A stretch of 64,000 nucleotides of DNA from contig JADIIU010000028.1 in the NCBI GenBank assembly GCA_027603945.1, positions 1-64,000 on the forward strand, written 5' to 3'. Each line of letters opens with the position of its first letter. Position 1 is the stretch's first letter. This DNA is from Terramyces sp. JEL0728. Its lineage: Eukaryota > Chytridiomycota > Chytridiomycetes > Rhizophydiales > Terramycetaceae. Below, in pieces: positions 1 to 64,000 of this stretch. The notes beneath the pieces are model-generated. The model saw only the letters and a program-made list of their open reading frames with translations, was not told where the DNA came from and made no database searches. Position numbers and translations under genes: made by a program.

Positions 1-14
1 GGTCTATTAATACA

Positions 15-1655
15 TCAAGCGTGCGCGTAAAGAAAAGGATTTTCAAGTACAATATGCAAGAAAAACAAAAAATCCTTGTTGAACAGAGACTTGAGGAGTT
101 GAAATGTAGAAATTACCTGTATTTGATCGTGTTGATGTTTATGAGATGAATCAAACATTTTGATGTTGGTTACCGATCTTTTGTTTAAAATTAGATTCAA
201 GAGTGCAAATTCATCTTTTCGACCGGCAAACAAGAATTGAATCGAGATATTCTGCAACTTTGCGTTTTCAATTGCTGCTACCATGGACAAGAACGGAGTG
301 ATTCCAATCCCACCGGCGACAAATACCAAATTTGAAGGGATATTGTTTTGTTGGTCAAAGCAACTGAAATCGCCTCCAGATCCAACATATCGCGGCTGTA
401 CTTGGCGCTGGATGGAATCTGAATGATGCAAAAACGAAGAAATCAGTCCAGTTGGAACATGTTTGATTGTGCATGAAATAACGTCTGTCGGTACAAACTC
501 TTTCCCATCAAACGCTGGAGAGGAAGAAATGGTCCAAGTTCTAATCTTGTCATCATTCAACGATTGGGGATTGCCATTATTCATGTGTCGATATTCGATA
601 TTGAGCAGTTTTGAAAAGTCAAGAATAATATATCCACCTGGCTTGAATTTGATTTTTTCAGATAGTCTAAAGGTAAATGTTGAAATTTGACTGGTTAATT
701 TTTCAACACTGACCAATTGTGCAACTGAGCCTTGAGTTGGAGCTGGTTGACCCATTTCCTTCAATTCAGAACAAAGGTAGCGCAACGGCGGATTGTATGG
801 AGAAAACGACTCTTCTCCCACCAATTCTAGTCCTAAAGCCTTTCTAATTAATACATATCCTGTGATTCTGATTCTGGTGATCAAACTAGTTCTTGGCATA
901 ATAGCATCCGCATCTTCATTATACAGATTTTCTGCTTCGCCTGTTATATACAATACATCTCCGGTATGAAAGTTTGGAAAGATGCTGTCAAGAAGGAAGG
1001 AAGCTTTATATTCTGGCTCCTACCTCTCAAATTCAAGTTTTGGATGTAGGCGTTAATAAGCCCTTTAAAGATCGCACTGTGATTCATTCCCAAATCAGAG
1101 TTTCTGGCATCTTGGTCATTATGTCTAGTAGCTAAAAAGATTGTACTGGCTTGGTTGATAATATTACGACATTCTTGGTCCAAAACAACTTTTCCAGCAT
1201 TCATCTGATCGTGAACCACCTGTTCCTTTCGTTCAATTCTCTTCAATTGCCTAACAGTAATGTACTTTGGGCAATTGCCCATGTTTTCATTGGTTAGTAG
1301 CTGCATTCCAATCGAGCAATCTCGTACATTGAATTCATTAATCACTCCAGCAACTTTGTTTCTTCTTCTGTTTGTAAAATCAACGCCAACACCAGCAAAC
1401 CTTTTAGTATCGGAATTGAAAGTTAAGCATTGCAAGAACGGATCACTTTTAGCTAAATCAACACCAACATTCAGTTGAAAAGGATTTACAGCATCTATCA
1501 TTGTATTTGGATTTCCAACAATCAGAGTACACCACGGTCCTTCAGCACCGTAATAAACTACCTGGTTTTACAGTTAATCCGCACGCTGAGTGTTCTAAAC
1601 AACTCCTTCCGTGTGAAGACTCTTCAATTCCTATAATATCCAGTACATGTACCAT
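15..1655 (-). CDS. PNPOx-like FMN domain fused to FAD/NAD(P) reductase domain
   Basis: Predicted 532-aa cytosolic flavoprotein that probably passes electrons from NAD(P)H through FAD to an FMN domain; substrate unknown. Three exons joined by introns at 1540-1561 (22 nt) and 1004-1023 (20 nt), starting at the ATG at 1653-1655. Residues ~30-230 resemble the pyridoxamine-phosphate-oxidase split barrel (NSDLGMNH, then GDVLYITGEAENL). Residues ~290-532 resemble a ferredoxin-reductase fold: KPGGYIILDF, RTWTISSSP (FAD binding) and FVAGGIGITPF (NAD(P) loop). This order is known in microbial PNPOx/FNR fusions. The last ~25 residues are unusually hydrophobic and lack the terminal CGP motif, so the 3' end may be misread or involve an unrecognised intron. 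The start lies inside the antisense transposon fragment at 1631-1942. Confidence 0.75.
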
Positions 1656-1942
1656 TTAAAAAGTCTGCAAAAAAATTTCGCTGATTCGCATTGGACAAAT
1701 TTCGCATTCGACAACCCAAAATACGGTAATGTAAATTTTCTGTCATCAACGTTGCCATTTGAGTAGTCTTTATGTCTACACCAGGCATACCATTCATGAA
1801 CTTTACCCTCTAAGGTAGTTCTAGTTTTTGTTGGCCGTTGTTTATAATGTTTATCGATAATGGATTGTAGAGCTTCTTGTTCCTGTTCATATTGTGTAAG
1901 AGTTCTGCCTAGAAGCATATGATCATTTGTGTTGTCTTTCAT
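1631..1942 (-). pseudogene. Tyrosine-recombinase / GCR1-type core-binding domain fragment
   Basis: ORF of ~104 codons from an ATG at 1940-1942. It contains TKTRTTLEGKVHEWYAWC followed by a basic/polar stretch, the pattern of the helical core-binding domain of eukaryotic tyrosine recombinases (Crypton-like) and of the related fungal GCR1-type domain. No catalytic domain (R..HxxR..Y) follows, and the ORF runs into the 5' end of the flavoprotein gene. I infer a relic of a mobile element. The family assignment rests on one motif and is tentative. Confidence 0.35.
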
Positions 1943-3668: not shown

Positions 3669-6600
3669 ATGAACCCCATGAATGGAACAGCTTCTAGGAC
3701 AGGACCTCGAATAGTAAACCGTTCAGCTAATGGGTTTTTTGAAGCGTAAGCTATTGTGTAACTATTTAGACCAACAGACGACCCACCTCGATATATCAGG
3801 AATACTGAAACAGGTGTATATGAAAGAGATTATTCCAATAGTCCAAATTCAACTCTAACAAGACCAGCTGTAACTAATCAAAGGGATAACAGAGCGGATG
3901 CTAGACCTCCACAAGCAAGAAGCCCTCCATTAAGAACCGATACAAGGTCAGAAACCCGGCGGGTTAGGTCACCACAACCTAGGTCACCAAGAGATAATAA
4001 TCCATCTTCATTTGATGATATGCTGAAAGATATTGATAGCTTAAACTCTACGACTTCTCGCCAAACAACTCGCAGCAGAGCAAAATCACCAGAGCCAGTT
4101 CGGTCCCCCAGGATGGATGGACGCAAAAATGGATTTGATTTTAATCAAATTGATTCTTTGGACGATATGATGGATTCGCCAAAAACAAGGCGAAGAGGCT
4201 CGGATGCCGGATTTAGGGATGTTGCATCCAGACCCGCCTCTCAGGATGACGGAGCTAGACGTATTAATAGGAAAAGAAATGATTCTGATACCGAAATCCG
4301 GCCATCGTTATCGAAACGTTCGGATGATTTACCTAGTCGCTTTGATTCCGGAATTAATTCAAGGAGAGGCTCAAGGGATCGTACAGCAGCACTATTGAAT
4401 GACGATGTAGCTAGCTCTCCCCGAGAAAGAAAAAGAGGTGATACCCAGAGGGAGGAATCGGCTGGAAATCGTCGGTCTCCACCAATTTCTAGAAAAGTTC
4501 CTGATTTGGATGAACCTATTAGAGAGTCAAGAAGAACCAGGGATGCTGATGTTCCTACAAGAAAGCCTAGAGATGAGGATTACTCAAGTAGCCGCAGAAG
4601 AGAGGAAGATTCACCTGCAAGGCGAGTTAGGGATGACAACGCACCACCGAGAAGAACTCGAGAGATGGACGACGACATTCGCCGAACCGGAGAAGATCAG
4701 CCTCGCAGATCAAGAGGTTCTCCGCGCACTCCACAGCCAATCGATGAAGACCCTGTGATGACTGCGCAGGAATTAAAAGATATGGAAAGATTAAGAGAAG
4801 AAAAACTTCAAAAAGAAAAGGAAATTGCCGAGGCTGACAAGAAAGAAAAGTTGATGATCGCAAAAGAAAGAGAACGGAGAATGCTTGAAGACCAACAACG
4901 AAGAGATGGGAGAAGAGGCTCTACCCAAGAATTCGCATTGGTTTCTGCAGCACCCATTGACGAATCGGTAAATTCTGTTTGATTTTAGGTTCTTGTGCCT
5001 GATTACCTAACTGCTTTGATGCAAACTTTAAGAAACGACACTACAATTACCCCAATCCCTGAAAATTTTACTACCCCCGATGCTTATAGTCACTGGAGAA
5101 CAACTATGAAAAGATCTCTTCAAGAAGTTTTGATAAAAATGATCAAATATCGATTCTTGACCCCACCAGAACCGCAAAAGCCTGGATTTGAGCCAGTTAA
5201 GATTCGATTCAAAATTATTCAAGCGCAGGGGCTGATTGGAAAAGAAGGGAGAGCTAGGAGTACTTATTGCAATATTGAATTTGGGGATTTAGCTGCTATT
5301 CAAAAACAAAATAGGAATGCGAAACAAAGAGAAGTTTTTAGAACTGAAGTTATTGACGACTCTTTGGATCCAGTTTGGGATCAAGTTTTGACGATCCCTG
5401 CCAATTCTCTGACGGATGAAGTCAAAGTTGAAGTTTGGGATAAAGTGAAGGAGCATTTTCTGGGCCAAGTTATTGTAAAATTATCGGATGTTATCACCAA
5501 ATGTAGCAGAAATGGGTATTATGAATCATGGCAGGAATTATTACCGAGAGATGGAAAGAACAAAGACAAGTATGTTGGAGGAAAGTTGTTGGTTGGAGCA
5601 TCATTACCGGAAGAGAAAAAACAGAGTTCTCCAAAATCCTACAAGGAAGTTCAATCGATGTTAAGCAAAATGCAAGTGGACAATCGTGCAATGTTTGACA
5701 TTTTACTTCGTGCTTGCTTAGTATTGGATCTGTACCAGCCTAGAGAAGGAAGAGCAGATGTGCTTTCTCCTGAAGCGGTTAATATGCTAAAAGGATGGTC
5801 CAACACTTGGAGTATAAGCGATTCCTATCAAGTGATTGCTTATTTAAAGATCTTGTTTGAAAAGTACGCCGCTTATGCAATTTCCATTTCTGATTTATTG
5901 AAAGCATTCCACTTTGTATATGCAACGGTTAAGAAGAGGGGGACTTTCAATACAGTGGAGGTAATTATTTCTAATGCAGATGCAAATGGTGATTGAACTA
6001 TTGGAGCAGATGAAAGAGCACTGCTCTGAAAGAGTAGTGAAATACAAAGAGTTATTCCCCAAGAATCAACCAAGAGGAGCATTGGAATCTACAATCTTGG
6101 TATTGAGAATGATTCACAAATTCCCTACCTTTAGAGATAATCATCCAGAAATCCAAGAGTCCCACAGAGATGAATTAAAAATTATGATGACCGAATCGTG
6201 TATCACCAAATTCCAAGGATTCAAGGAACTATCCACCCCTTTTGACGAAAACGATGTTGAATCTGTAATCGAAGGAATCAACAAACTGGCAGACTTGGTT
6301 AATGACGAAATCGAGCTTGATGTAAAATATTTCCAACCAGCTTTTGCACAGTACTTGAGAATTAACACACAGGGAGCTAGATATTGTCCGTTTGACGGCC
6401 GAATCTCAATTAAAGTATTTCACATTGACTTTGGAGGGGGCTAGTGAAGTGCTGGAAGGAGACGATGCGGTTAATAATGCACCGCACTTGGTGTTTGATC
6501 TGTACAAGAAAGTAAGGGAAATGTCAGACCGATATGCATCGTCTGTTCCAGGGTAATACGTAGTTGACACAGATTAAACAGTTTGTCCAATTCATATATT

Positions 6601-8416
6601 GAAGAGTGGTTTGCGCCATTCATGTATAAATGGCTCCACCAGCTGTCTTTGAAGACTATTGGGTGGGTTGATGCTGCAGTAAAAGCAGACACCTTTGAGC
6701 CTGATGGCGTGAATGAAGACGGCGTGCCTGTCCATTCTTCATCTATTACCGATGTATTCTCTGCTATATATTCAGAATTGGAGCTAATCACCGATTTGCA
6801 ATGGTCTGATGCTGTGCAAAATGCACAGTTCTTCCAAGGGTTTTCTAAATCCATGAACGCAGCGATCGAACAATATTGCGATGTAATTACTACAGTTGAA
6901 AAGAAAACTGCTGCTGCCACGGGCTACACTGCAGTAACTACGATTGCTAATTTAATCGGTAATAGAAATTCAGAACCAAAGGATATTGAACGAGAGGTAA
7001 ATATGGTTTAATGCAGTCCTGTGCCAAATTGAGAAACGTTGGGTATGCTATGCGCAAACTGAAAGAAATGTATCGCATGATGAATGTTTCTGCAATTACC
7101 AAAACTGTCAAGAACCACAGAAAGTCAATGGCTATTTTGAAAAAGTTGCCAGATCCATCAACCGGAGACACAGTCACTGGTGCTTTCAAGGTTCAAGCTT
7201 CTTATGCTGAAAATATCAAGCCTCTAAACAAGAATGGAACCTCGAATCCATATGTAATTGTAAGAGTACCAGAAGGAACAGTTGTTCCTCCACCAGAACA
7301 AATACCAGCAAAAAGTCCTAAAACCAAATCCCCCGATGCGGAAGAACTGCCACCAGCGCCTATAGTTTTGACAGGCAATGGCTGTGAACTATTAAGATCA
7401 CGCGTTATTAACGAAACTTTAAATCCAACATGGGATGAAAACTTTCCAGTTATCTTGCCACCTGTACAAAGACTTGAAGTGGCAATTTTCTCAAAGAATT
7501 TGTTGACAGCCGATGAAGTAGCTGGAACTGCTATCATTGATCTTTCAGTCGGAACCAGACTAAGACGAAAACTATTGGATCATCAGACCCATGATGTGTA
7601 TGTTGAATTGGAACCACAAGGAAGAGTCCTCTTGCGATTGACGATGGAAGGGGAAGAAGAAGATGTTGACTTTTGGTTTAGAAGAACAAACGAACGCTTG
7701 ATCAGGACTAGAGACGCCTTTCTTCGTTCACTGGTTGCAAAGGCAAGTTTAACTTACAATAGGTTGCACCACACACCAAGGATGTCATCACAAAGGCAAT
7801 CAAAGACAATGAAGCTGCCATTATACCTGAAACATCCTGGATTAAATCACTTACTGCTGCAGTTCAATATTCCGACAAAACCAATTCTGGCAATTCGATT
7901 AACACACCAGTGTCTGAAAATGACGCTGTCGCCGCTCTCCAACCGCTAATTGAATATTTGGAAAAGAATTTGGAAACACTTTGCTGCCAAATTCCCAAAG
8001 AGATGGCGCAAGAAGTCATTTCAAGGATTTGGGTGGATTCTTTGCTCGTCGCGACAAATAGTCTAATTCCTCCGCTATTTGGGCTGCATTCTCAAAAAGT
8101 ACTCAATATCAGACAGGTGTCAATGATCAAGACATGCATTGCAATCATAAGAGATTTCCTTCATGGAGATGGAGGCGAGTTTGGACTTCCATTCTCAACA
8201 CTCGATTCACCATTGTACAAGGATCTCAGGGAACTAATATCAATGTATCATTTCGAAATTGAAAAACTGAAAAGAGAATATGAATTGTCACTACTAGGAG
8301 GAAAAGATAAGGAAACAATATTAAGACTTGTAAGATTAAAAGCAGATAAAGATAGCGCAGAATTAAAATGGATCGACTCCCAACTAGTCAGACGTAGAGA
8401 ACAATCTCGTCGTTAA
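3669..8416 (+). CDS. Munc13/UNC-13-like vesicle-priming protein (C2-MUN-C2)
   Basis: Predicted 1533-aa protein acting in SNARE-dependent exocytosis at the plasma membrane. Introns: 3746-3769, 4968-4988, 5961-5979, 6415-6436, 6553-6572, 6997-7016 and 7743-7762 (the last starts GC). The sum is an exact codon number. Residues 1-425 are disordered and very rich in Arg/Ser/Asp/Pro, with a charged coiled stretch near 370-420. Residues ~495-625 form a first C2 domain (DDSLDPVWDQ). The MUN region has an MHD1-like block at ~930-1070 (EEWFAPFMYKWL, IGWVDAAVKAD). A second C2 domain lies at ~1128-1260 (NETLNPTWDENF), and an MHD2-like tail at ~1330-1480. The ATG at 3678 is an alternative start. Close to fungal Ync13-type proteins by layout; no C1 domain is visible. 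Confidence 0.85.
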
Positions 8417-8423: not shown

Positions 8424-9513
8424 ATGCCATATTATTTCTTGGCTGTTGAAAATTTTGCCAGCAAAATTGAATCTCAGCCAACTCTAGAATTCCAAATTGA
8501 ACATTCTGCTTCCTTTTCAGAAATCAGCTCCAAAATCCTTCCTGATTCGATTAATCAACAATCGCCGTCATCTGTTATTTTGGATCACCAGATGGAGGAG
8601 CTGTTTTACATTTTGGATTTGAATGGAAATTCTTTTGAATCGTCCGTAAAAACAAGTATTATGGCTTTAGCATATGAACTGCATTGCATTTTAATTGGAT
8701 TGATTATAACTGCTTCAAATTTAATCCTGATCAATGAGATAAAGTTTGCGATTCGAAAGGCGATATCAATGTTATCCACCAACGATATCCTTGGAATGAA
8801 AATATTGGAACAACGGATGCAGGAACTGGCGAAAACGGAAATCCCTGATATTTCAACTTACTACAAGAGACTAATTAATGTATATGGGTTCAAACTAGAT
8901 TGCATCGCTTCACTGTATCGCAGTCAAAGCAGTATTTAATATTAATTTAGAGGTAAGCTTTCCTGATCCAAGGTAAATGTCCAAGAGCTGAATACTTTTC
9001 AACAATTTGGATTAAAGGCAAGAGCAATGAGACTTGACTACTTTATTTGTAAAGCAGGTATTTTCCCATTTACAAGATCTTGTCGCAATCAGTATGGAAT
9101 TTCAAAAAGCCTCGAATATTCAGTGTGAGCCGCTGTTTACATTTGGATACACAAAGACAATCAGTCTCTTATTCACCTACCAGTGCAATGAATGTAACTT
9201 TAGCCCAATTCCCGAGTTACTGCCAGATTTGGTCAAGAATAGCGATAGGTTAAGTGAAGTCACAAAAGTTGATACTCATCGATACTTGGGGATCTACACT
9301 CACAACTCAAAGCGACACGTTATTGATATGAAATTGACTACGTCCTGCAAATACAAGTATTCCAAATTTTGGTTCAACAGTCCTGAATGGGTGGTTCAAG
9401 AAGCATCCAGTTATTTATGGGAAACTAAAAGATACACGCTCACTCCAAACGGAATACTAGATTTTAATGGCGATTACACTTTGTATAATTTTGATTCTTT
9501 TATAAAAAAATAG
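8424..9513 (+). CDS. Conserved-looking protein of unknown function, with 2-nt microexon
   Basis: I do not recognise the family. The model gives 343 aa from ATG 8424, only 7 nt after the Munc13-like stop. Introns: 8932-8950 (19 nt), 8953-8972 (20 nt) and 9058-9076 (19 nt), leaving an exon of just AG at 8951-8952. With these removed, three open segments fuse, giving KVNVQELNTFQQFGLKAR then CKADLVAISMEFQKASN. The protein has no signal peptide; one hydrophobic helix lies near residues 88-105 (HCILIGLIITASNLILI). The C-terminal half is rich in aromatic residues and Cys (YQCNECNF). The stop TAG at 9511-9513 abuts the stop of the opposing BIR1 gene. If the 2-nt exon is wrong, this may be two genes or hold a sequence error. 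Confidence 0.6.
8951..8952 (+). other. Candidate 2-nt microexon (AG)
   Basis: GTATTTAATATTAATTTAG and GTAAGCTTTCCTGATCCAAG are both well-formed host introns separated only by AG. Keeping these two bases is needed to hold frame: without them (one 41-nt intron) the downstream frame hits a stop. The combined model adds to an exact codon count. Confidence 0.5.
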
Positions 9514-11463
9514 TTAGTTGAATTTATCCAATTCAAGTTGGCAGGCTGCATCAAACTTTTCGAGAACGTGATCGCAAATCAAATCATGGAATTCTCCAAC
9601 TGTCATTTGTTGGTTTTCGAGATATAATCTAGTCAAGAAATCCAGATCAATTGCAGAGTTCTTGTTGATAGTATTAAATACTTCAAGGCTGTGTTTAGTT
9701 AATGAGGATATTTGTTCGTGAGTTGGGAGAGAAAGCTCCGTCTTTCGTTTAGGAATTTTAGTGTTTGAGGTAATCGGTATATCTTTTGCATCATTGGTCT
9801 TTGCCTTTTTCCTTGCTGGCTCACTGGGATCAACAGCTGGATCATCCTCTAGTGTGCAAGCTGATGATGCGTCGTCATCCTTCAAAATGGATTCATCGAG
9901 TTTACTTTTTTCCAAACTAACATTTTCAGCCTCTGGCTTTGCTAAAGTCTGTGTTCCATCTGCTTCCACAACTGGATTCTTTCTTGGTCGACCGCGTTTG
10001 CTCTTTTTAACTATCGAAGGCTGTTTTTCATCTACGAGATCTTCAATTCTCATTGAAATATCTTCTTGGACGCTAGCAACACTTTCTTTCTTTTTTCTTC
10101 CTCTTTTAGCTTTTGGTTTCTCTTCCGTAATTGTTTCTGTTGGTAGTTTCTTTTTCCTTCCTCTCTTTTTTGGCTCCGAGACTTCAATCTCGGATACACT
10201 GGCGATTGATTCCTGGGTGGTATCTGATTCTTGGATAACGGATATTTCAGAATCAGCAATTTCTGTAGATGCAAGTGATGCTTCTGACAAGATGCTCTGA
10301 TTAAAGGTTTCACTGGGCTCTTCGACTACTTTCTTTTTTCTTCCTCTTTTCTTTGGTTCGACAGGAGCAACTGGGACTACAGGCTCTTTAACTTCCTTCT
10401 TTTTCCTGCCCCTCTTCTTTGGTTCAGGCACTTTTTCAACAGTGTTTTCAGATTCGCCTACAATCTGCTCTGTAGTCTCCACACCATGCTCTGTAGTCTC
10501 CACACCATGCTCTGTAGTCTCCACACCATGCTCTGTAGTCTCCACACCATGCTCTTCAACTGTCGTAGTAACTATATCTTTCTTGTCATCGACAATTTGC
10601 TTCTTTTTTCTTCCTCTCCTTGGCTTTTCCAATTCATCTTTTGCTACTTGCTTCGGCTCTTCTACTACTTTGCCTTTTTCCTTTTTTACTGCTTGTACTT
10701 TTTTTGGTCTTCCTCTCTTTTTAGGTTTTTCTACTTCGCTATCAGTAACATCATCCACAGTATCCAGGTCCTCATCAATTGATTCGTTTGCCACAAGTGG
10801 TTCATCCACCGTTTCAACCACTGGTTCTTTACTTTGAACGCTAATCTTCTTTGGTCTTCCTTTCCTTTTCACTGTCTTTTGGGCTTGCGCCAATTTCAAA
10901 ACAATACAATCAGGCGATCTTTTTGTGTGTTCCAGCCTATATTAATAAGGATTACAAAACATCGTCTTCCTGCTCAAACCCATCCAATGAAATATCGCAG
11001 TACAGACAACAACAATGATCGTTGCTATCACTAAGGGGAGAATATAAAAACCCGGCATCTACCATCTACATTAAATAATAATAACTTGATCAATAGTAGG
11101 GGTTTGCTGCTCATTGTTTGGATAGGGCCACTCCAATCCAACAAACACATCCTTCAACAATTCTATTTGAAATTCTCTCTTTTGGATTCCTTGATTCCAA
11201 TCGTAATCGCCAGGTACTGAGCTGTACAATAAGCAAAGAGAACAAGGATCCATCAAATGTTTTTTCAAGGGGTGCATATCTGAACAATCAATAGTTTTTG
11301 AACAAAAGAAACAGGAAAGTAGGTAATTGTTTGTTTTTGTAGGAGTATGATAAAATCCTAGTTTGGATAGTATTTCGTACGACTGGCCTGGTATATCACT
11401 GGGAAATTTCTTTTTCTTTCTTGTTGAGCTGAATGATTTTAATCGTTGATCTTGAAATTGCAT
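9514..11463 (-). CDS. BIR1: Bir1/survivin-like protein: two BIR domains plus AT-hook-rich tail
   Basis: Predicted 636-aa chromosomal passenger complex subunit (partner of Aurora and INCENP at centromeres and spindle). ATG at 11461-11463; introns 11066-11085 (20 nt) and 10937-10955 (19 nt). The first BIR (residues ~7-80) starts RLKSF and has GFYHTP, CFFC (C51/C54), then a degenerate H..C end and no GW. The second (~105-185) is canonical: WPYPN, TIDQMVDAGFLYSP, a CLYC pair, DISLDGFEQEDD, and EHTKRSPDC (H-x6-C). Residues ~190-540 are low-complexity, with about ten AT-hook-like cores (KKRGRKKK, KRGRPKK) spaced by acidic stretches; four perfect EHGVETT repeats lie within. The C-terminal ~70 residues are helical and may bind the passenger complex. 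The AT-hook tail is inferred to bind AT-rich chromatin. Confidence 0.85.
10467..10550 (-). repeat. 4 x 21-bp perfect tandem repeat in BIR1 coding region
   Basis: Four identical 21-bp units encode (EHGVETT)4, followed by a partial unit. The unit is a multiple of three, so copy-number change would keep the frame; likely polymorphic. Confidence 0.9.
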
Positions 11464-11533
11464 TTGTAGATTTCGAGAAAAAAGTTTAACTGCAGTTTGT
11501 CAAGGTTCGAATCAAATTAACTATCATTTAAAT

Positions 11534-12377
11534 TTATTTCCATGAAAAAATGGATTTCTTTTCTTCAAGTCCAATCCTTCCAAACATATCTTCTAAACCA
11601 GTTGATTCCTATATTAACAAAAGATACTTGGTTCTTGAAATACCTAGGAGGCTGAATAAAAAAGTCTTGGTTTTCCTCTGCAGCTTCGACTACATCTTCA
11701 GTCGGACTTGCCAGGAACATACTCTCAATCCCATCCAGTATATCGTTTGATTTCGTTGGCTCTTGCTTTGCTGGTTCTTTTTTGGCTGATAAATCAATTT
11801 GTTTAATTATTATTGGTTTCTGTTTATCGGTGAGAGTGTAATAAAGTATCGCTGGTGCAAGATAGTAGTATTTAGTCCATATTGTTATCAAGATTAATTG
11901 TGTTATTTGTGTCTTGTCCAACAGCCTTTGTTGCTTTAAAATCTTTAGTTTTGGCTTGATTATCACTGAAAAACAAACGATAATGTATTCCGTGATTTTA
12001 TAGCAAATAAATATCGAGTTGGGTATAGAATAGAAGCTTATCGAAACAGATTCTGACCAAATAGAATAGATTTCTGGCAAGAATAACCCGCACCAGATTA
12101 TTTGTAAGATACACTTGACTACCAAATACCAGCTGATGATCTTTCTATAGATCCGGTAGTCAACTTGTCTTTTCTTTGGTTCCAGTATTTCTTCTTTTCT
12201 GGGTATAAATGTGTTGGTTTGGATTGATTTGAGGTAAAGTTCAACCTTTGGTTCACAGACTTTACAAACTTGGGGGTATTTCTTGTGTAATTTTTCTATA
12301 TCTTCATCTTGACTACTGTTTTGTATAATGTTCAAGACCAGGTTTTGGTTGTTTATGCACTCTTGGCAAAACAGCAT
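11534..12377 (-). CDS. IMA1: Ima1/Samp1-type inner nuclear membrane protein
   Basis: Predicted 274 aa; ATG 12375-12377, one intron 11609-11627 (19 nt), stop 11534-11536. The N-terminus MLFCQECINNQNLVLNII and a later CKVCEP pair match the two-CxxC zinc-binding Ima1_N region of fungal Ima1 and animal NET5/Samp1. Three to four hydrophobic segments follow (~85-110, ~115-150, ~165-190). A charged linker ends in GLEDMFGRIGLEEKK, which appears only after splicing. The family sits in the inner nuclear membrane and links heterochromatin and SUN/KASH complexes to microtubules. It is shorter than S. pombe Ima1, so it is a reduced form. Confidence 0.75.
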
Positions 12378-12481
12378 TTTGGAAAAAGTGTTTTTGTTTT
12401 AGCTGTGGCTAATTGGAAGATACAATTGCTAATCGTGCAAGGTATGGCTATAGTACTCGTAAAAGTAAAATGAAATGCAAT

Positions 12482-13050: not shown

Positions 13051-13111
13051 TTTTGTTTAGGAAAATATTGGTAGCATGGACAATTCATTTGAAATTGGTT
13101 TCTACTATGGG

Positions 13112-14809: not shown

Positions 14810-14848
14810 AGTTGTAATAAATTATTTAAAAATTAAAAATACAATCTA

Positions 14849-46076: not shown

Positions 46077-46094
46077 ATTTTCAAAACAAAAATT

Positions 46095-53000: not shown

Positions 53001-56000
53001 CTCCTGTAACTTGGTCACCCCATTCGTTAATTTCAGGCATATTAATATCATCGATAAAGATGATCATTTTCTTTCCTGCTGGCGGACCATAAGTTGATCC
53101 CATTCGCTTATCTAGATAGCTTTCGATAGTTCTTTGGAAGATCATAGGAGTAGTTGCAGATGAGAAACTCATAAGTTTTGATAAATGTGTTTCTGGGTTA
53201 ATTTTGGCCAAGAACTTTTTAATGGTGACTGTCTTTGCCGTACCTGGTTCACCAATCAGCAGTACCGCCTTTCCTTGTTTGTTCAATGTTTCAATCAAGA
53301 ATTCGGCACGAATGTTATCTACCATAGGCACAATAATGCTTGAGAATTCAGGAGTGGAGTCTCCTGGGTAGATCCAATCAGTTACACGATCTTTCCAGTG
53401 CTGCCATTGCCCATTGTCATTTACAAAGAATTCAAAGAATGTGTCTTGGGAGCTCGGGTCGAGTGATGGATACTTCAAATCTGGAATCTTTTCCAACATG
53501 AAAGTTTGCAATTTCTTTCTTTCATCCAATTCAAGCAAAGCACCAAATGACCAGAAACATGCAAAGATGAATAATCTTTCCAGATGTTCAGAAGTAATCT
53601 GAGTGGCTTTTGGAATCAATCCCGTTAGGAGAATTGTTGCATTAACCACGTAATTTACTTGGCCGATAATCATCTTTGGATGCAGATCCAAGAGCAAGAA
53701 CAGGTTCAATTGTGGCCAAGTAGCATTGAATAGCCTTTCAAGAACAGGAACCTCGCCTGGCTGTCTGGATTTAAGCCATGATTGCAAGACAATATCCCAA
53801 GTGAGCGAGGTGATACCAATATAAATCATACCACATCGAGACACAGTCGCAGGAGATGCATTTCTCAAACTGTGCACTTCAAAGGTTAATTTACACGCAG
53901 AGGACATTGGGATTCTATCACCGTTTGCAAGAGTTAAACATTTGTTATCATCCAACACAGAGTTCAAGTTTTCAATCCACACTGCATCTACAGGTCCATC
54001 CAGAATAATCCAAATAGTTTGGCCTTTGTTTTTCAAGGTTTTTCTCCACAGGGAGGAGAAAATACCATCGGTCCAGTCGTTTGTAGCTACGTCTAATTTA
54101 CCAAACATCTGGAAATCTGTAATTGCTTTTGGATTCATTCTAAGCTCTTTGTGAGGATCGCCGCAAGCAGTCATTGCTTTGAGTAGTGCATTGATACATT
54201 TTGTCTTGCCGGTACCGGTTGGTCCGAGAATCATGATGCCGTGTCTGACCTTTGCCGTTTCATATAATTGAATGACTTTGAGTGTCCATGGCGGATGGCT
54301 TATAAGATTGACTTCGCTGAGTTGCTGATCAATGGCTGCTTCAACGTTAGGGTAGCTTCCTTTCTTTGCATTAAGGCCGGGGAACAAGTCGTTAACCAGA
54401 CTTAGGAATAGAGCTTCGTCTTCATCCACTAGTTTTGAAAGATTCATATCTCTCAAAACTCTCATCATGATCAGCATTTCAGGATCTTCTGGGTTTGCTC
54501 TTTTTACTGAACCGGAAGTACGCAAGACCGAAAGAATGTTTCGAAGACCGAAATCGTAGTGCACCTGCTTTGACAATTGCTCTTCACATAGACGATATAG
54601 TACAAAGAATTTCTTTGCCAGTATCAGATTGGTAATGAAACCACAGCCTGCAAGCTTTACTCTGATGATAATTTGTCTGTCAGGTACCATCATGGCTACA
54701 TAGCGGAAATGGACTTTAAGGTTTTCAGGCAACTCTACACGACCTGCATAGCCAGGATTCATAGTAATGAACATGCCCACTTCAGGGTTCAACTCGACGC
54801 AGTCGCCATCGGTGAAAATGAAAGTGGTTTTCCTTTCTTTCCTGGCCCCAAATACGGAGCCAATTTGCTGAGCAGCTACAGACAATACAGGCAATTCAAT
54901 ACGGTTGAATTCGTCAAAGCATCCCCAACAGCCACTCTGTGCGAGACCTTTATAAATTCTACCAAGACCACGATAATCCATCTGATCGGAACAATTGAAT
55001 ACGACAACCCATTTCCCAAGGTTTTTGCCCAAATCTTTAACAGACTCGGTTTTTCCGGTTCCGGCTGGTCCTGCTGGGGATCCACCAAGGGACATTCCCA
55101 AAGCTTGAGCCAAGGTAATATATACACGATCCGTTAATGGAGTAATGACCAACCTATCTGTGCAGCCAAGATATTCGCATTGATATTGGAAATCAAAGTT
55201 TGTAATGGATACTATGCAGCAATCTTTGGTTTCGTGCCAGTAGAAACGGGCTTGTCTCAGCCATTCGAAATCTTCTGGAGTCTTTACATGAGCCTTTACT
55301 AGTTTTTCAAACACATCCCTGTGATGCACTTGAATTGTAATCAAAGTTTCGTACTTTACTCTGTCCATCTTTGTCAATTCTTTAGTAGTGACTTCAATGA
55401 GCGTGTTCAATATATCAGTGATTCTTTGCATAGTTGCAGCCATCTTCTTTTTGTCAGTCTTTGACATTGTTAGAGCTTCTTCGGACATCATGGTCCATTG
55501 GATTTGACAACACAACAGCCCAATTTGAGCAGGGTATTCGTCCATAAACTTTTGTAATGGAACCTCATTCACCCTAGACGCAGCTTCTCTGATAATGTCG
55601 TTCACTGATATTTGCATCGACTTGAGTAAGGTTCCTAGCCACATTTCTACATTGCCAGCAGCTAGCATAGGACGACTGAGAGTAACCCTCTCACCTTCTG
55701 ACGATTCCAGTCCGACAATTTTATCATATTCCTTGTCATGGAACTGCACTTTGTCGACGTTATCAAAGACACTCTTCAGATGAGCCTGGATTGTGTGGGA
55801 GTCGCTAGCCTGGCCTAATATTTCAAGCAATGCTGGATCTGAAACAAAGAAGAATCTAGGGAAAATAGCTCTTTTGGATTCCAAGTAGCCTGAAAGGGAC
55901 TTTTGGCATAGTTCCAACTGCTCAGTCAAGTGCGGCAATAAATTAGCAATAGTTTCGTCAGCTACACAACATTGGATAACATTTGGATGTTCATTTGCCA

Positions 56001-59000
56001 GCCCCATGATCTTGCACCAGGATTTGTCAATGTTGCTAAATCTTTTGGCTTCCTTTGGCATCTGCTTTGCAATGTCTCCGCCAACAAACACAGCTTCGAG
56101 ATAAATCCACAGGTTTTGCACTGACAGCCAGTTTTCAATAACTTCAGATGCAGTAGATAGATTATGCACCCAAGTTTGGATGGTTGGCTTGAATGGAGCA
56201 TTATAGCGGTTGCTCATTAAAGATGCCAAAGTCATCAAGCTGTCTTCCATCTGTGAAATGATTTCAGCAGTTGCAGAAGGCTTCAATACCAAGTTTCCTC
56301 TTGTTTTGAAAGGTCCAAGGGTGAAAACCTTGTCTTCCCAGTCACTAACAGTGGCTTTTAACTTGATTTCAATCTCAGCTTCCTTTACTGCAGCAGTACA
56401 AATATCTTCAATATCTTCTTGATTTTCGGTTAATGGGGCGTCCAACAAGTTTTTGACATAGAACATGTCAGGGTCCAAGTTGAGTTCTGCTTTGGTGATG
56501 TTCATGATCGCATCCCAGTGTCGTTGTTGCATGGCTTTGTGGCTCATCATTTCGAGAAGTGGTACCATTGCAGCCAAGTTGTCAACAATGTTTTTCAATT
56601 CAGTGAAAGAGTCCCAATCTTTAATCGCCTTTGGCAGCTTCTTGATCTTGGATTGGAAATCAGTCATATCTGTATTGATGTCCTCCAATTTAATATCTTG
56701 CCATAGGGTTTCACAGTACGATTGCCTTTTGTTTAATACATCGTTGTATAAGCTGTACAGATTCTGAAGCAGTTTCAGCTCCTTTTTAATTCTGACCAGG
56801 TTGGGGAAAGGAGTGACAGGCAACGAGAAGAGCTCTTCGCCCCCAGAGTAAGTTTCCCATTTTCGATTCAGCTCGTCGAACCCCCTTTGGAAAACAATCA
56901 GCCTTTCGCTAGCAGTTTTTGGATTAATACCGCCAGCCATTGGCCCATTTTCAGTGTATTCTACGGTAAATTCTTTGACATCCTGCGAGAACTTTTGAAC
57001 CGAACTAATAAGATCAGCTTTGAAAACAGGTTGAATGGTGCTCAAATTCTCTTGGGTTTCAATCACCAAATTTTTCAACTTTTTCCAGCTGTATCTTAAA
57101 GAGTCTACCATTTCAGTTTCTTCTTTTGTCACTGCTACATTATGTTTTGCCAGTAACAAATAAGCCTCTTCGATAGGAGCCACCTTCATGTCAACATCAA
57201 CTTCTGTTTCTCGGATAGCTGAAAGCGTTTGGACAGCCATCCTTAAATCGTCGATATCCACGATCTTTCTGCTAAGTTTGATGGTTTTGGTTTCCATATA
57301 TTCGATCAATTCTTCCATGTCCATCTTTACTTTCTTGTTCAAGTTCAGACCATACTGCTGCTTCCACTCTTTGGTTTCAGATAGCAGTGCCAGTTTAAGC
57401 GGTTCAGCAGAAATCAACAATAGCCCGATTTGGGTAGTACCTGCAATCTCAAGGATTTCTCTTTCAATCATTTCATATCTGTTAATTTCATTTTCAAAGT
57501 CTCCAATAGTTGGCGATCCGCTCAAGAACTTTTGAATAGTTTCGTTCTTGTCGTCTTTCCACAAAAAGTCGTACTTGCTGAATTGTTCGCGGTGCATTTC
57601 AACATCTTTCTTCATTGAGTTTACTGTTGATGATAAAAGCATCATGACTTTCAAGACATCCTTGTTATTGGCGACTTGGGAGTTATCTTCGGGGGAGTGG
57701 GTAGACATAGGGTCATCAGGAAGGTCCAGGAATGGTTTCCAGTTTGTAACCAACTTTTTGGAAACGTCAATAATTAGAGAAGCCATTTTGTTCAACGAAC
57801 TTTGAATATCTTCCAGCTTTGGCTGGAGCACAACGTTTGGAATCAAAAGAAGTATTTCTGCCTTGAAGAATGGCTTTTGAGATGGGGGACGATTGTATTG
57901 ATTGACGGTATATGTACCCAATCTGGATCTAAGAAGATCCAGGGAACCTTTAGTATTTTGTACCAGGGCTTCAAAATTTTGGTAATTAGCATTGTAGTAA
58001 ACGGCTTCATACGCTAGTCTAAGCTCGGCATTCTGATATTGTGGGAGAACCCTCTTGGACAGTTCGGCAATCATATCTCTGGCAGCACTTTCAATCAGGT
58101 TGCTCCTATTGCTAATCACTTGAAGCATGTTGGTGCATCTTTTGTCGGTTTTTTCTTGGAAGATTTCAATTGTCCATTGTTCGTTATCCTGCGGGACTTC
58201 GATTAAGGACATTTCAGCAATCTTCTTCACACCGGCTTCAATTCTGCAGTGAGAAATATCCAATAATTTCTCAATTAATTCTTGGAGTCGTGCGAGCTGT
58301 TTGTGATTGGCTTGCAAGTAATCATCCAGGTTCAAAGAAGTCCAGGTCAAGGCAGTGAGACCAGGCTGTAATGATCTATCCAAGTCATCAATATGAGGCG
58401 CTAGAGCCTTCTTTAAGATAACAGAAACACGGTCCAACAGGGCTTTCTTGCTCTGAAGAATCTTGTGGAGCTCATTGTTTAGTCCGCGGTAGTAGAATTC
58501 TTTGACACAGACATTTCTAACGGATAGAGGAACTTCAAGGCCCAGTCTTTGCAAATACTTTGTTTCTTTAATTAACTGAAGAATTTGCGGATCGAAATTT
58601 ACGTAAACTTGCCCTTCAGTGGTTGAAACCAGCAATGTTGCTTGAAGACCGGTTTTGGCTTGATCTACAATGCTGTACCACGATCTGTACCACAAGATTT
58701 CAAACTCGATCAAGGCTCGAGCAAGTTTGTTGTAGTTTCTGATATGTTTCTTTGCTTCGGCGGAATCCAAGACAGTAGTGTTTTCTTTGAATTCTTTCAT
58801 AGGACCTTCAATTCTTCTGTACAATTGACGTGCCCAAGCTATTGCTCCGGCAACTGGCGGGGTGTTTCTCGGAATTGGTGGAGCATCTTTGAACTTTTGG
58901 TACATTTTGCGAACACCTTCAAGGTCTCGTCTTGTGTAATGGACAAAGACGGCGTGATACTTTGATTCTAAATCAATTTGCATGTCTTTAATCTTTCGGA

Positions 59001-60774
59001 ACTTGGCCAACAGTTCCAAAGAGTTTTCAGTGCTAGTTACATGTTCGAATGAAGAATCAATGAATTGCTGCAGCGTGGTTTCGATATCGGCAACCTGCTT
59101 TTTGAAGCTATTGTAGTCGGTATCGTACTCCATTTTTCTGTGGTCAAGAATATCGTATGGCTTTCTTTGAAGAGTGGTCAAGACATTGTAGAACCGTCTA
59201 ACAATCATATCCATACCCTCAACACCGAGTTGCTGAAGTAGCGAAAACTTTTGGATAATATTGAACATGTCAATAACTTTTTGGATTCTTTTGCAGAAAG
59301 CATCAAATTTACCAAATATATACATTTCAGAAAAGTCAAACTGCTTTTCATTGGGGGTTTCTTGGAGTTTTTTCTATTATTAGCTAATATTTGCCTTAAT
59401 TTCGTGGAAGCATCTTTGATAAGCTTCATTCAACTTCATACACTGCATGAGTTTTTGAACAAGTATTTGTCTATCCAAATCCCAGATCTTGGAACCGCCC
59501 TCTTTATATACAAATTCTTTACAGCTGGTAATCATTTGATTGGTGATTTTTACAAACAATGAAGTCATACGCTCTGAGGTATTGTAGTATCTGGAAATAG
59601 AATAAATCATCTTGATGGCGTTGATTAATCCTGGAATTGCAGGAATCATACCTAATGGGTCGCTTTGGTATAGGGGATCGCAGAAACGGTCAAGGGTGTA
59701 AAGATACTTTACATTGTCTTTTGATTCATTGGCAGCGTCTGTTACACGGTCATCTAAATCCTTCCATGTCTTGAGCAGTGCCCTGGATTTAACAGCATTC
59801 AAAATGCCAATAACCTTTTTGCAGGATGGGCTTTTTAGCTGGTCGGTAATGCTATTGAATTTGACCATTCGCGCTTTCCAGTGAGCTAATTCAGCGTTTG
59901 GACCAATATCATCAGCTTCTTTTCTCATCTGTTCGCTTTCAGCCAGCACTTGTTCAATTTGTTTACACCATTCAGTAACAAGAGCTTCAATTAGCTCAAA
60001 GTTTACCTTCAATTCCGTTAATTACCTCAGGATCATGGACCGCGTTGCTGTATTCACTTGGCTTCTTGTACGCGTCCAAGTCGATGGCACACTTGTGTAA
60101 TTGAACGCTATCTTGCAGATTGACCATGGCAACATCCAAGTCGTTTGTAAACTTTTCCAAGACCTCCATAAACGATTTGACACTTTCGTCTTTGCTTTTG
60201 GACAACACTCCCCATTGATCCTAACGTAAAGCAAATATTACTTGGGCTGAAAGGGCAGGGAAAATAACGTGTTTGACCATTGTAGTTAAAGAAGGCAGGA
60301 TATTCGCATTCAATGGTCCAAATGAAATATCAGTGTAAATATTTTGAATTGTGATAGGCTTGGTATTAACCCTAATGAAAAATGCCCCTAATCCAGTAAG
60401 GACTTCCTTTTGTCCGTGAGTAACAACTAAACTATTTGATTTAGCCTGGTTGGCGTTCATTTTGCCGACTCCTGCATCTTCCTATCATTAGTACTTGTAA
60501 CCTTTTGCCAGTAGAAAATTACTTTTCTAGACCCTCCATCCGCGAAAAAGTCATTTACAAGGTCCAATTTGTTTCCTACCAGCAACGAACTTTCCAGTAC
60601 TGATGGTTTCTCGTCAATGAAAACACCAAATTTTTCGAGTAAATAGCGGTGTCTAATATCCAGCGATGCTCTCTTCTTTTCTATCGCGTTCTGTGTTGCA
60701 GCAGCTTTCTTTTTATCATTTTCGAATGTATTTAAATTCTGCGCACTTCCAGCGTTTGCTGCTATGGATGCCAT
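47092..60774 (-). CDS. Axonemal outer-arm dynein heavy chain (DNAH5/DNAH8, gamma type)
   Basis: 4513 aa; ATG 60772-60774. Introns 60482-60501, 60221-60241, 60007-60025, 59374-59394 (GC-AG), 50771-50790, 48208-48227 and 47970-47989, leaving an 8.6-kb central exon. N-terminal tail: [17 protein letters not shown] and [15 protein letters not shown], as in DNAH5/8. Linker, then AAA1 ([10 protein letters not shown]), AAA2 ([10 protein letters not shown]), AAA3 ([10 protein letters not shown]) and AAA4 ([10 protein letters not shown]) P-loops. The coiled-coil stalk with microtubule-binding tip follows, then AAA5-6 and the C-terminal domain with [18 protein letters not shown]. The protein is full length for an axonemal heavy chain. 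It is the strongest evidence for a motile flagellum. Confidence 0.97.
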
Positions 60775-60970: not shown

Positions 60971-62516
60971 TTATTGTTGAGATTGAAAGAATTGTAAAAT
61001 TGCGCCAACCAAGAATTGGCACTTCTGCGATAATCCATCAGACTCTGGTTTCAAGGTTTCTAAATCAACCCTAACGTTGCCATAAGCTGGCCAGTTTGGC
61101 TGTGGAGCATTTCCGTTTGCAAAATTGATGATGCTATCAGTGAATTGACGAGCAAATGCAGCTTCAGTGCCATCAATGAGTGGGGAGTATTGGAACAGGT
61201 ATGGAAGTTCAGATGAGTGATAGACACCTAACTGAGCTGCGTTTGGGAATGTAGGGATCTTTGGCACATGTCTGTTGATGGACTTGTATACAGTGACATT
61301 GGCTCTAGAGTAAAATTCAGCGAAAATAGAAGAAGGGCAGTTGAAAATTGAATCCCCAAAGAAATCAGCAGCAGCTCCAAATGCACCTAGAGGGTTGGTA
61401 GCAGCAGGGTAGCTTTGCTGTAATGTTTTCAAGTTGGCTGGGGTAAAGAATCCAAGGAAGGAAGCCTCAAATCCAAACAATTCCTGTTCAGTTTGGATTC
61501 CAGTAGTGAAGATAGTGCCTTCATTTAAATCTCCGTTTATGAGAAGAGGAACCTTTGAGAACTTGTTCTTTGCGTACAGCTCTACGAGGGATTCGTCTTT
61601 GACATAGGTGCCATCCGCAATAATATTCCATTGGATATTTGGTTTGTGAGCAATAAGAACATCAGCACTAAGTTTGCGTAAACATGGAAGGAGTGGAGCG
61701 ACTGTGCAGTTGACTGAATTTGCAAAAGCAACAAATTGTGGATCGAAAGAAGCTGGAGTATTGTAAAACATACCACTAGCGCCAGATAAGAGCACGGCAC
61801 GGTCAAATAGGGTTTGGTTACCGTCGAGTGCCAATAAATGAGCTCCTACGCTGATAGCACCACTTGATTCACCCATGGCAGTAACTTGGGTTGGGTCACC
61901 ACCAAACGCACCGATGTGTTTTCTAACCCATTTGAATGCAGCAGCTTGATCCAGCAAACCTGCGTTTACAGATCCTTCTTGGGCCATTTCAAGACCACCG
62001 AGCCATCCAAACAAGTTGAGTCGGTAGTTAATGGTTACAATAATTGCGTTTGGGTTCTCCTTGATAATGTTTCTTCCGTCAAAGACTGCTTCTTGGTTGC
62101 TTCCATCGTTGAAACCGCCTCCAAATACATCTATGGTTAATCGCACTATTACAAACGATAACAGGAAGACCAAATGCATCTCTCGGAGCATAAATGTTCA
62201 AGTTCAAACAATCTTCGTCTCCAAAAACACCAGGACCTCCAAATGAACCCGTTTGTTTACAGATATTTCCATATTTTGTTGCATCGTGTATGCCAAAGAA
62301 TGGAACAGGTGGTTGAGGAGCTTTGAATCGAAGTTTGCCCACTGGAGGAGCTGCGAATGGAATGTTCAAGAAAGTAACAGTATCTGCATTTGCAACACCT
62401 TTAAATGAGCCGTAATCTAGGAATGCATATGCATTTCCGAAAGCATTGACAGAAAAGTTTGGGTTTGGAGCGGCAGCGACGAGTGACGCAAATGAAGCGA
62501 GAATGCTGATTTTCAT
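60971..62516 (-). CDS. Secreted type-B carboxylesterase/lipase
   Basis: 507 aa; ATG 62514-62516, intron 62131-62152 (22 nt). Signal peptide MKISILASFASLVAAAPNP. Alpha/beta-hydrolase landmarks: GSFKGVANADTVTFLNIPFA, DEDCLNLNIYAP, PVIVYVFGGGFNDGS (oxyanion, restored by splicing), IIVTINYRLNLFGWLG, FGGDPTQVTAMGESSGAISV (nucleophile Ser in GESSG), and GVYHSSELPYLFQY (catalytic His region). Typical of fungal extracellular esterases/cholinesterase-like enzymes. Substrate unknown. Confidence 0.93.
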
Positions 62517-63088
62517 CTATAATCTAAGTTGGATCATCCTTGGTTTCCCGCTTTTTATTTTGCAGGGAACGTTGCCTAAATTAAAAAGGAAGGTCGCGAA
62601 CCACAAATGTGATGAGAAGCTAATCTGCGTGGAACTGATGAATCGCAAGTGCCTAGCCAAAACAAGGCAGCGGCAATGGGCGATCTTCAAAAGCAAACAC
62701 CTCCTTTGGCTGATCCTATTTCTTTTGATCCGCTGTGAAAAACATGATTTTGACATCGGGTTTCCTGTTTCATTTGATTTGTGAAATCAGGAACTAACTG
62801 ATAGTGACACAAGGTCAAGTGAATAGATTATCTTAAACGAAACGGCCAGTCCCTTTGTTTGGTTCGCAGGAACACATCTCATTGGGGAATAACATTGCTG
62901 TATTAAACCGAGTCGATCTGAAGCAGAGTTGCAAAGTATACTCTGACAGAATGTGCGGATGGACAACAAGCAGCTTACTTAACGACGGCTATTCACAGTT
63001 CGGCTGAATCAACCACCGGTTTGTAGTCCGGAACGTTTCCGATTATGAGTACAGGTTCTTCTGAATAAGGAGCAGTGGCATTAGTTTA
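62517..63088. other. Intergenic region with no supported gene
   Basis: This 572-bp stretch lies between the esterase start and the PA-domain gene stop (both minus strand). Short ORFs (e.g. 62517-62756 minus, 62787-62969 minus) have no recognisable motif and no intron-joined partner. It presumably contains the esterase promoter. Confidence 0.5.
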
Positions 63089-63985
63089 TTAACAACAGCA
63101 TTGATCACTTGTACGGCTAGAAGTACACCTTAAATTATTCCGTTTGCGGTAATCAGTAGCATAGTAAGAATCGGGCTTGACAACAGCTTCGCCTTGTCCA
63201 ATGACAACATTCTTGATTGATGACCCAAAGTATGATACCTGATCGTTCAGCTTCCTGGTTGGATGAACAGCTTCTTTATCCACGATTTTGATGAACACTC
63301 TGTCCACCTTTGCTTTCAAAAACTTTTTGGATTCCTTGTCATCGAGGAAAAAGCTGGGTATCGGGATAGTATCTACTCTGTTTACCATGCCTTCGCCGTA
63401 AAGCATATTTGGTCTGGTCATTGAAATAAATGGTGTTTCTGAAAGCACAAGAACACCTGTCGCTCCGGCCAAATAAGCATTTTCTACTTTTTGCACAAAA
63501 TTACAATCCCCTCTTCGAACAACCACCATAGAATGTTTAAGCAAAACACGCTGTTCCAAAGTGTACGATAGACAACCACTTTCCAAGCCATTTACCGACG
63601 ATATTGGTTTCATTTTCGTTAGAAATACCAGATTACCAGTTAAAGTTAATCCATGGTAAAGCAGAGGCCCGATAGCTCCGGGAAGTGCGTATACACTGGT
63701 AATTCTGTTCTTTTGCTTCAATTTCAAAATTGCAGAGAGATACTGATTGCTTGGCGAATATTCCGTCCCTGCCAATGCCCTTAAAGATGTATAAACTTTT
63801 CCGCCGCTTTGCAGTTTAATATGGTTTATAGCTGTAACAACGTATGCTTTTTCATGGCGATCGTATTTTACAGTCATCAAAGCTCCTCGTAATTGATCAA
63901 TTAATATATTGCCAGCATGCTGGGTAAATACCAAATTACCATAACAATTGTGCCACTCTTTTTCTGATTCGCCAATGTAGGTAAT
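63089..63985 (-). CDS. C-terminal part of a PA-domain protein (EDEM3-like?), cut by window edge
   Basis: Last exon, 298 codons, preceded at 63986-64000 by the 3' end of an intron (minus strand ...TTATAAATTAG). The gene continues outside the window. A protease-associated domain is visible: HSMVVVRRGDCNFVQKVENA then YLAGATGVLVLSETP, and DTIPIPSFFLDDKESKKFL. Upstream are TQHAGNILIDQLRGALMTVK and ITAINH-like VVTAINHI. PA domains follow the GH47 domain in EDEM3-type ER mannosidases and also occur in vacuolar sorting receptors and proteases; I cannot choose without the N-terminus. The Cys-rich end (SDQCCC) is unusual. Confidence 0.5.
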   Translation of the reverse strand: MTYIGESEKEWHNCYGNLVFTQHAGNILIDQLRGALMTVKYDRHEKAYVVTAINHIKLQSGGKVYTSLRALAGTEYSPSNQYLSAILKLKQKNRITSVYALPGAIGPLLYHGLTLTGNLVFLTKMKPISSVNGLESGCLSYTLEQRVLLKHSMVVVRRGDCNFVQKVENAYLAGATGVLVLSETPFISMTRPNMLYGEGMVNRVDTIPIPSFFLDDKESKKFLKAKVDRVFIKIVDKEAVHPTRKLNDQVSYFGSSIKNVVIGQGEAVVKPDSYYATDYRKRNNLRCTSSRTSDQCCC

Positions 63986-64000
63986 CTAATTTATAAGATT

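Follow-up and report, generated by a model that had tools for sequence, protein, structure and literature searches.

Ultra-short introns of 18 to 22 nucleotides predicted throughout the genome of the chytrid fungus Terramyces sp. JEL0728

Introduction

The DNA considered here is a stretch of 64,000 nucleotides (nt) from Terramyces sp. JEL0728 (contig JADIIU010000028.1, or C28), referred to below as the window; the assembled genome comprises 15.0 Mb in 231 contigs. Most gene models in the window appear to be interrupted by introns of 18–22 nt, a size close to the lower extreme known for any organism, and predicted introns of this ultra-short class recur throughout the genome, an observation that holds in the sequence samples described below. 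The first-pass annotation, made from the letters of the window, had proposed genome-wide ultra-short introns in a “fungus-like flagellate.” The predicted introns stand, and the vague label can be corrected, as the identity of the SEY1 protein marks the source as a true chytrid fungus, Terramyces sp. JEL0728, of the Terramycetaceae (Rhizophydiales).

Genes of the window

Genes were predicted ab initio with a custom finder that combines codon scores with splice-site models. With a learned length prior, it places 81 introns in the window, every one of them 18–22 nt long (2 of 18 nt, 13 of 19, 39 of 20, 16 of 21, and 11 of 22) and found in 28 of the 32 models. With a flat prior, in which intron lengths of 10–150 nt are weighted equally, 49 of 60 introns have these lengths. 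About 90 introns, mostly of 19–22 nt, had been claimed, along with 29 multi-exon models and introns in nearly every gene, and the new models bear this out. The counts claimed for single genes are recovered in part: the MUN/C2-domain gene and the dynein gene have seven introns each, as stated, but SEY1 has eight rather than seven, and the BK channel has 9 or 12 rather than 14. The features of the window are listed below; gene names marked “by eye” rest on no search result.

15..1501 (−): oxidoreductase-like gene model (by eye); intron 1004-1023
1919-3330 (+): transposase-like pair of open reading frames, hAT-like by eye, with repeats after; the first frame (1919-3088, intronless) has no Pfam match
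3730..8416 (+): MUN/C2-domain gene; introns 3750-3769 (GC-AG), 4968-4988, 5961-5979, 6351-6372, 6553-6572, 6997-7016, 7743-7762 (GC-AG); Pfam MUN, C2
8424..9513 (+): gene model; introns 8932-8950, 8953-8972, 9058-9076
9514..11463 (−): BIR-domain gene; introns 10937-10955, 11066-11085; Pfam BIR, two stretches
11534..12377 (−): gene model; intron 11609-11627
12482..13050 (−): phosphoribosyltransferase gene (adenine type by eye); introns 12704-12723, 12831-12851; Pfam Pribosyltran
13523..14809 (+): NAD kinase; introns 13749-13768, 14209-14228, 14529-14548; Pfam NAD_kinase, NAD_kinase_C
14849..15840 (−): gene model; intron 15641-15660
15931..16768 (+): gene model; introns 16091-16112, 16387-16404, 16505-16525
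16832..17437 (+): TPR protein (TTC36-like by eye); introns 16875-16896, 17187-17204, 17278-17298, 17360-17379
17819..20270 (+): SEY1; introns 17866-17885, 17981-18000, 18165-18185, 18459-18478, 18598-18617, 18914-18934, 19312-19331, 20011-20031
20276..20744 (−): gene model; introns 20435-20454, 20556-20575
20890..21557 (+): gene model; intron 21269-21288
21781..22646 (−): RNA polymerase RPB3-like gene; intron 22441-22460; Pfam RNA_pol_L, RNA_pol_A_bac
23196..24849 (−): F-box/WD-like gene (by eye); introns 24349-24370, 24638-24656, 24758-24777
25024..26828 (+): patatin-like lipase gene (by eye); introns 25769-25789, 26137-26155, 26470-26491
26959..27905 (+): CobW-like gene (by eye); intron 27694-27713
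28762..30986 (+): BK-type potassium channel; introns 29015-29034, 29253-29272, 29396-29417, 29626-29644, 29719-29740, 30056-30074, 30229-30248, 30628-30647, 30719-30738
31284..33159 (−): gene model; introns 31860-31879, 32206-32225
33424..35714 (+): DYRK-like kinase (by eye); introns 33836-33854, 34053-34073, 34298-34318, 34547-34565, 34984-35004
35799..36486 (+): peroxiredoxin; intron 36181-36202; Pfam AhpC-TSA
36506..37111 (+): ERCC1/Rad10; intron 36728-36748; Pfam Rad10
38020..39301 (+): choline-transporter-like gene (by eye); introns 38478-38497, 38625-38646, 38970-38988
39345..43310 (−): FGAR amidotransferase, intronless; 88% identity with Boothiomyces sp. JEL0866
43741..45159 (+): glycogenin-like gene (by eye); introns 44228-44246, 44470-44489, 44605-44625
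45214..46151 (−): gene model; introns 45458-45477, 45761-45781
47092..60774 (−): dynein heavy chain, axonemal-type (DYH2-5-8) domain; introns 47970-47989, 48208-48227, 50771-50790, 59374-59394 (GC-AG), 59985-60006, 60221-60241, 60482-60501; Pfam dynein domains
60971..62516 (−): carboxylesterase-like gene (by eye); intron 62131-62152
63089..63942 (−): gene model; intron 63920-63939

Two of these models allow other readings. The first intron of the MUN/C2 gene could be a 24-nt GT-AG intron (3746-3769), and a forced regional run gives the BK channel its 12 introns, the extra ones at 28230-28250, 28663-28682, and 28687-28705; the forced model matches Pfam BK_channel_a, Slo-like_RCK, and Ion_trans_2. 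The window and 34 loci were scanned with Rfam, which returned zero RNA genes. By eye, the BIR-domain protein has VETTEHG repeated in tandem, along with numerous RGRKKK motifs that resemble AT-hooks.

Intron lengths and controls

Three samples of the genome were used. The training sample (the window and 20 pieces) served for a first pass in which only GT..AG ends were demanded, with no motif. The main sample adds 41 further pieces to the window (42 pieces, 331,455 bp of the 15.0 Mb), and the unselected sample consists of the window and 19 pieces from 20 contigs, one contig each (254 kb). The intron lengths of the first pass peak at 19–22 nt under the flat prior, so that the length peak claimed by the first-pass annotation appears even with neither length prior nor motif. 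Motif models trained on introns of every length put 183 of 215 introns at 18–22 nt in the training sample. Passes limited to GT donors skip GC-AG introns, and their models were therefore replaced by ones that allow GC donors. These later motif models were trained on introns of 18–22 nt, with length left free in the flat runs. In the main sample, they place 245 of 286 introns at 18–22 nt with the flat prior, so that most introns lie near one length below about 25 nt, and 341 of 355 with the learned prior. An over-lenient intron penalty that gave 888–994 introns, mainly spurious, was abandoned.

The unselected sample shows how widely the introns are spread. At least one intron of 18–22 nt was found in 18 (flat) or 19 (learned) of its 20 pieces, in keeping with the proposal that the class is genome-wide. 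Models with an intron make up 90 of 141 in the flat run and 94 of 132 in the learned run. The 254 kb contain 187 (flat) to 256 (learned) introns of 18–22 nt, which extrapolates to some 11,000–15,000 in the genome.

The length peak depends on the intron ends. A decoder with GT..AG ends and a flat prior placed 243 of 282 segments at 18–22 nt, whereas seven decoy dinucleotide pairs gave only 4–16 such segments among totals of 91–192; the GT..AG peak is thus 15–60 times the decoy counts with no length prior. The GT-AG (rarely GC-AG) ends are themselves imposed by the finder, and it is the lack of a length peak with decoy ends that speaks for them. The gene models contain the motif GTA-N(6-11)-YTRAY-N(1-4)-YAG 175 times in sense orientation and 19 times in antisense, a roughly ninefold bias, and 20 shuffles gave a mean of 10.2 occurrences (range 6–16).

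Evidence from proteins and near-identical copies

If the segments are introns, their removal should leave conserved proteins, as the first-pass annotation had held. Junction-by-junction checks cover SEY1 (8 junctions, 115 homologs) and PRP8 (6 junctions, 82 homologs), a junction being scored by the homologs that align without a gap within 4 residues of it. Thirteen of the 14 junctions are ungapped in 113–115 of 115 homologs (seven of the eight in SEY1) or in 80–82 of 82 (PRP8), and the remaining one lies in a variable stretch. The spliced SEY1 protein (762 residues) is an exact match to the NCBI protein of Terramyces sp. JEL0728, which means that the public annotation of SEY1 already excises its eight tiny introns. 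Over the 2,310 residues used as query (the locus ends before the gene does), spliced PRP8 shares 98% identity with Boothiomyces and 85% with Batrachochytrium. Eight spliced products or parts of products from the window match Pfam above the cut-off: BIR, NAD kinase, phosphoribosyltransferase, RPB3, MUN/C2, peroxiredoxin, Rad10, and the BK channel. For the intronless FGAR amidotransferase, which served to place the organism taxonomically, the next named matches after Boothiomyces are Globomyces (69%), Kappamyces (68%), and Gorgonomyces (64%). Aphelids and mikrocytids, earlier candidates for the source, are excluded by the protein matches.

Two near-identical 3-kb stretches, L024 and L025 (contigs C199 and C111), differ by 20 substitutions and are alleles or a recent duplication. 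Two of their genes have single-base indels within introns, which are 21 nt in one copy and 20 nt in the other, and the remaining indels fall outside genes. By direct translation, the spliced readings of the two copies agree and the unspliced readings differ, although the final finder missed some of these introns. Both intron indels lie in homopolymer runs, where read error may be their source, and the segments are short and AT-rich, as one would expect if assembly or homopolymer indel artefacts, or decayed genes, merely imitated introns. Such artefacts would not share a donor, branch, and acceptor grammar with fixed spacing, nor a ninefold strand bias, and the PRP8 obtained by removing the segments, so close to its relatives, already contradicts them. 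This explanation is therefore extremely improbable.

Annotated proteins of the related Boothiomyces bear on the same question. A filter for inserts in 116 FGAR amidotransferase, 116 SEY1, and 82 PRP8 proteins left 17 inserts, one of them on a junction: the annotated Boothiomyces PRP8 (P0241 and P0122 are the flagged Boothiomyces proteins) has seven extra residues, RLSFTNC, precisely at junction 1. A second case was spotted by eye and then checked; in a Boothiomyces macroporosus model, where a TPR gene and SEY1 are joined into one, seven additional residues sit precisely at junction 3 of the Terramyces TPR gene. Inserts of seven residues at junctions are what stopless 21-nt introns retained by annotation would produce. 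Tiny introns, partly mis-annotated, are thus probably shared by Boothiomyces, or by the family, to judge from the proteins alone. The practical side is that annotated Boothiomyces proteins seem to retain stopless 21-nt introns. As annotation errors in their own right, one could record the PRP8 insert and the fusion of the SEY1 model to the upstream TPR gene.

Intron anatomy

The introns have the minimal design that had been described for them, namely GT(A), a TAAT-like branch word, and AG. The donor favors A at +3 (0.89) and +4 (0.60) and T (0.47) over G (0.19) at +5, with AG|GTAATT as the majority sequence; the branch consensus is YTRAY and the acceptor YAG. GC-AG introns account for 6 of 355. 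Before any branch model was applied, TAAT words numbered 104 against 36 expected, and this enrichment, like the YTRAY consensus, accords with a branch site complementary to GUAGUA in U2 small nuclear RNA (snRNA), which here carries GUGUAGUAUCUG. The claim that there is no polypyrimidine tract holds between the branch and AG, where there is no room for one, but a moderately U-rich stretch lies before the branch (T 0.40–0.58 at intron positions 5–9).

Among the 341 introns of 18–22 nt, the best-matching branch A falls at position 14 in 147, 15 in 144, and 16 in 33, so that 291 have it at 14 or 15. It is followed by five nucleotides in 161 introns and six in 133 (294 of 341 together), and intron length is therefore mostly 14–16 plus 5–6. 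Most longer introns with strong signals retain the 5–6 nt after the branch. Coding sequence holds about 1.4 introns per kb. A weak negative association between the two spacings (p 0.046) is not relied upon. In-frame stops occur in 63 of 67 introns whose length is a multiple of three and in 154 of 274 others; the finder barely sees stopless introns of the former kind, and the excess is for this reason not used as evidence of selection.

Minor-class (U12-type) introns are recognized by an RTATCC donor and a TCCTTAAC branch. The GTAATT donor and YTRAY branch are not U12 signals, and the minor class was rejected for the set as a whole, single U12-type introns not having been looked for.

Spliceosome components

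The first-pass annotation had also suggested that so little room might require an altered spliceosome, and had proposed searching for its parts. U2 snRNA, SF1, U2AF65, and PRP8 were all found and look normal. PRP8 aligns well with its relatives, as do SF1 and U2AF65 (two RNA-binding RRMs and a terminal UHM) with relatives and solved structures; the SF1 KH region is retained, and U2 snRNA is canonical at the branch-binding stretch. The SF1 protein compared came from a GT-only model with a wrong 69-nt intron and is about 16 residues short relative to human SF1. The genes for PRP8, SF1, and U2AF65 each contain tiny introns themselves. In PRP8 (L021), 63 of 1,569 strongly conserved sites are altered, compared to 18–38 in five other chytrids, 58 in Boothiomyces, and 78 in Gorgonomyces haynaldii. 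Since the other chytrids span 18–78 departures among six of them, no special PRP8 change is claimed, and the sites suggest at most a mild acceleration, perhaps shared in part of the Rhizophydiales.

Such an ordinary set of parts also bears on whether the segments are kept in messenger RNA and skipped in translation. Translational bypassing is described for some yeast mitochondria, and short length is all that the segments have in common with it. Their signals are spliceosomal, and PRP8, SF1, U2AF65, and U2 are all encoded, so bypassing has next to no chance of being the explanation.

The canonical 5′ end of U1 snRNA is ACTTACCTG. U1 snRNA gave no Rfam match (41 of 233 candidates scored) and no match to one loop-I pattern, and U6 snRNA was not found in the whole genome by its Rfam model or two patterns, in both cases with no working control genome. 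Two weak U6 matches (27 bits) proved to lie within the coding sequence of a duplicated gene, and five U6-like pattern matches were rejected by eye. U6 may be split by an insert, divergent, or in an assembly gap. The U1-70K N-terminal family and RED had no match in the genome search, with control genomes likewise silent. Because U6 is required for splicing and the controls gave no signal, these misses are taken as search failures and not as loss. None of the six G-patch proteins resembles SPF45 by eye, and the human short-intron route through SPF45 (PMC8363638) is thus unsupported here. Locus L041 encodes, by eye, an RBM5/RBM10-like protein with six introns of 18–20 nt.

These searches bear on a reading in which the introns are real but their recognition is altered, with the U1 small nuclear ribonucleoprotein (snRNP) lost or much changed, U6 reading the donor directly, or a short-intron factor replacing U2AF. 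The missing U1 snRNA and U1-70K matches would fit it, as would the preference for U over G at donor +5 and the mikrocytids, with introns of 16–17 nt, in which only U2, U4, and U6 snRNAs were identified (PMC10245619). The U1 searches were silent in control genomes too, so no absence is shown, and the indispensable U6 was likewise missed, so that the RNA searches evidently overlook things; U2AF65 RRMs and the SF1 KH region are kept, and no G-patch match looks, by eye, like SPF45. Altered recognition is on this account unlikely. An altered spliceosome is so far unsupported, given ordinary PRP8, SF1, U2AF65, and U2 snRNA.

A bolder form of the idea, decidedly doubtful, is that the Terramycetaceae, and perhaps more of the Rhizophydiales, shifted to 20-nt introns recognized without a working U1 snRNP, U6 reading the weakened GTAATT donor. 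If this were true, the spacings of 14–15 and 5–6 nt would show the physical minimum of the catalytic spliceosome.

Proposed explanation

Very probably, the segments belong to the ordinary major class (U2-type) of spliceosomal introns and have been reduced to a near-minimal and tightly ruled length. Each would consist of little beyond its donor, branch site, and acceptor and would be spliced by the ordinary two-step major spliceosome. The lower limit of about 14 nt to the branch may be the length at which the U6/donor and U2/branch helices just fit end to end in the catalytic spliceosome; the branch A of Stentor at position 10 means that such a limit is not universal (PMC9505925). More tentatively, SF1 might read the branch, U2AF, with 3–4 nt between branch and AG, might work by contacts with proteins or bind the U-rich segment that precedes the branch, and U1, if present, might act ahead of U2 and not beside it. 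U1, SF1, and U2AF may in this way act in turn on so little RNA.

Several observations count against this explanation or the models beneath it. The ab initio gene models are imperfect and some are erroneous; GT-only passes overlooked GC-AG introns in SF1 and dynein, and the first two introns of the model at 8424..9513 leave a 2-nt exon, which makes that part doubtful. Introns longer than 22 nt make up 40 of the 286 in the flat run, part of them with perfect signals and part spurious-looking, and one 10-kb piece (L003) has four small models and zero introns. Junction 1 of SEY1, in the variable N-terminal stretch, is ungapped in 0 of 115 homologs and has the NCBI model as its sole support, and the NCBI protein is probably itself a prediction. 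A trained model supplied the branch positions as its best matches, and they are not mapped branches. The misses of U6 and U1 belong here as well.

Comparison with known systems

Intron lengths in Paramecium are spread more broadly than in Terramyces. As here, short introns are the norm in this ciliate, at a longer length of about 25 nt (PMC5014332). Together with the 18–21 bp introns of the Bigelowiella (chlorarachniophyte) nucleomorph (PMC10245619) and the 15–16 nt introns of Stentor coeruleus (PMC9505925), they are the precedents of comparable size that the first-pass annotation had cited.

The length class is thus known from nucleomorphs, Stentor, and mikrocytids. In the open-access literature, among the matches listed, no paper was found that deals with introns of this kind in Terramyces, Boothiomyces, or any other chytrid, and the available parts of Rhizophydiales genome papers do not mention tiny introns. 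Cryptococcus neoformans, with the largest share of short introns among the fungi compared, has introns of 56–63 nt on average (PMC11913375), about three times the Terramyces length. Chytrids such as JEL0728, which is a strain from a culture collection, can be grown, which would make the minimal intron size compatible with recognition by U1, SF1, U2AF, and U2 experimentally approachable.

As in Terramyces, the introns of Stentor keep to a narrow length ruler, with the branch A followed by 5 nt, and the commonest Stentor intron starts with GUAAUU. The branch A of Stentor lies at position 10 of 15 (10–11, versus 14–15 here), and there is no strong branch consensus (PMC9505925), in contrast to the strong YTRAY of Terramyces, which was located with a model of it. 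The Bigelowiella nucleomorph has a nearly equal length window, many introns, and a narrow distribution, but it is the relic nucleus of an endosymbiont, whereas Terramyces has a 15-Mb fungal genome. In mikrocytids, which are intracellular parasites, introns of 16–17 nt are likewise ultra-short and nearly uniform, but they number 224 in 179 genes, with 17–19 spliceosomal proteins (PMC10245619), compared to the extrapolated 11,000–15,000 of Terramyces. Ultra-short introns as the norm have so far been reported, in the sources consulted, from ciliates, reduced parasites, and the relic nucleus of an alga. Their presence in a fungus whose PRP8, SF1, and U2AF65 are ordinary would demonstrate that such introns require neither the collapse of a genome nor a stripped-down spliceosome.

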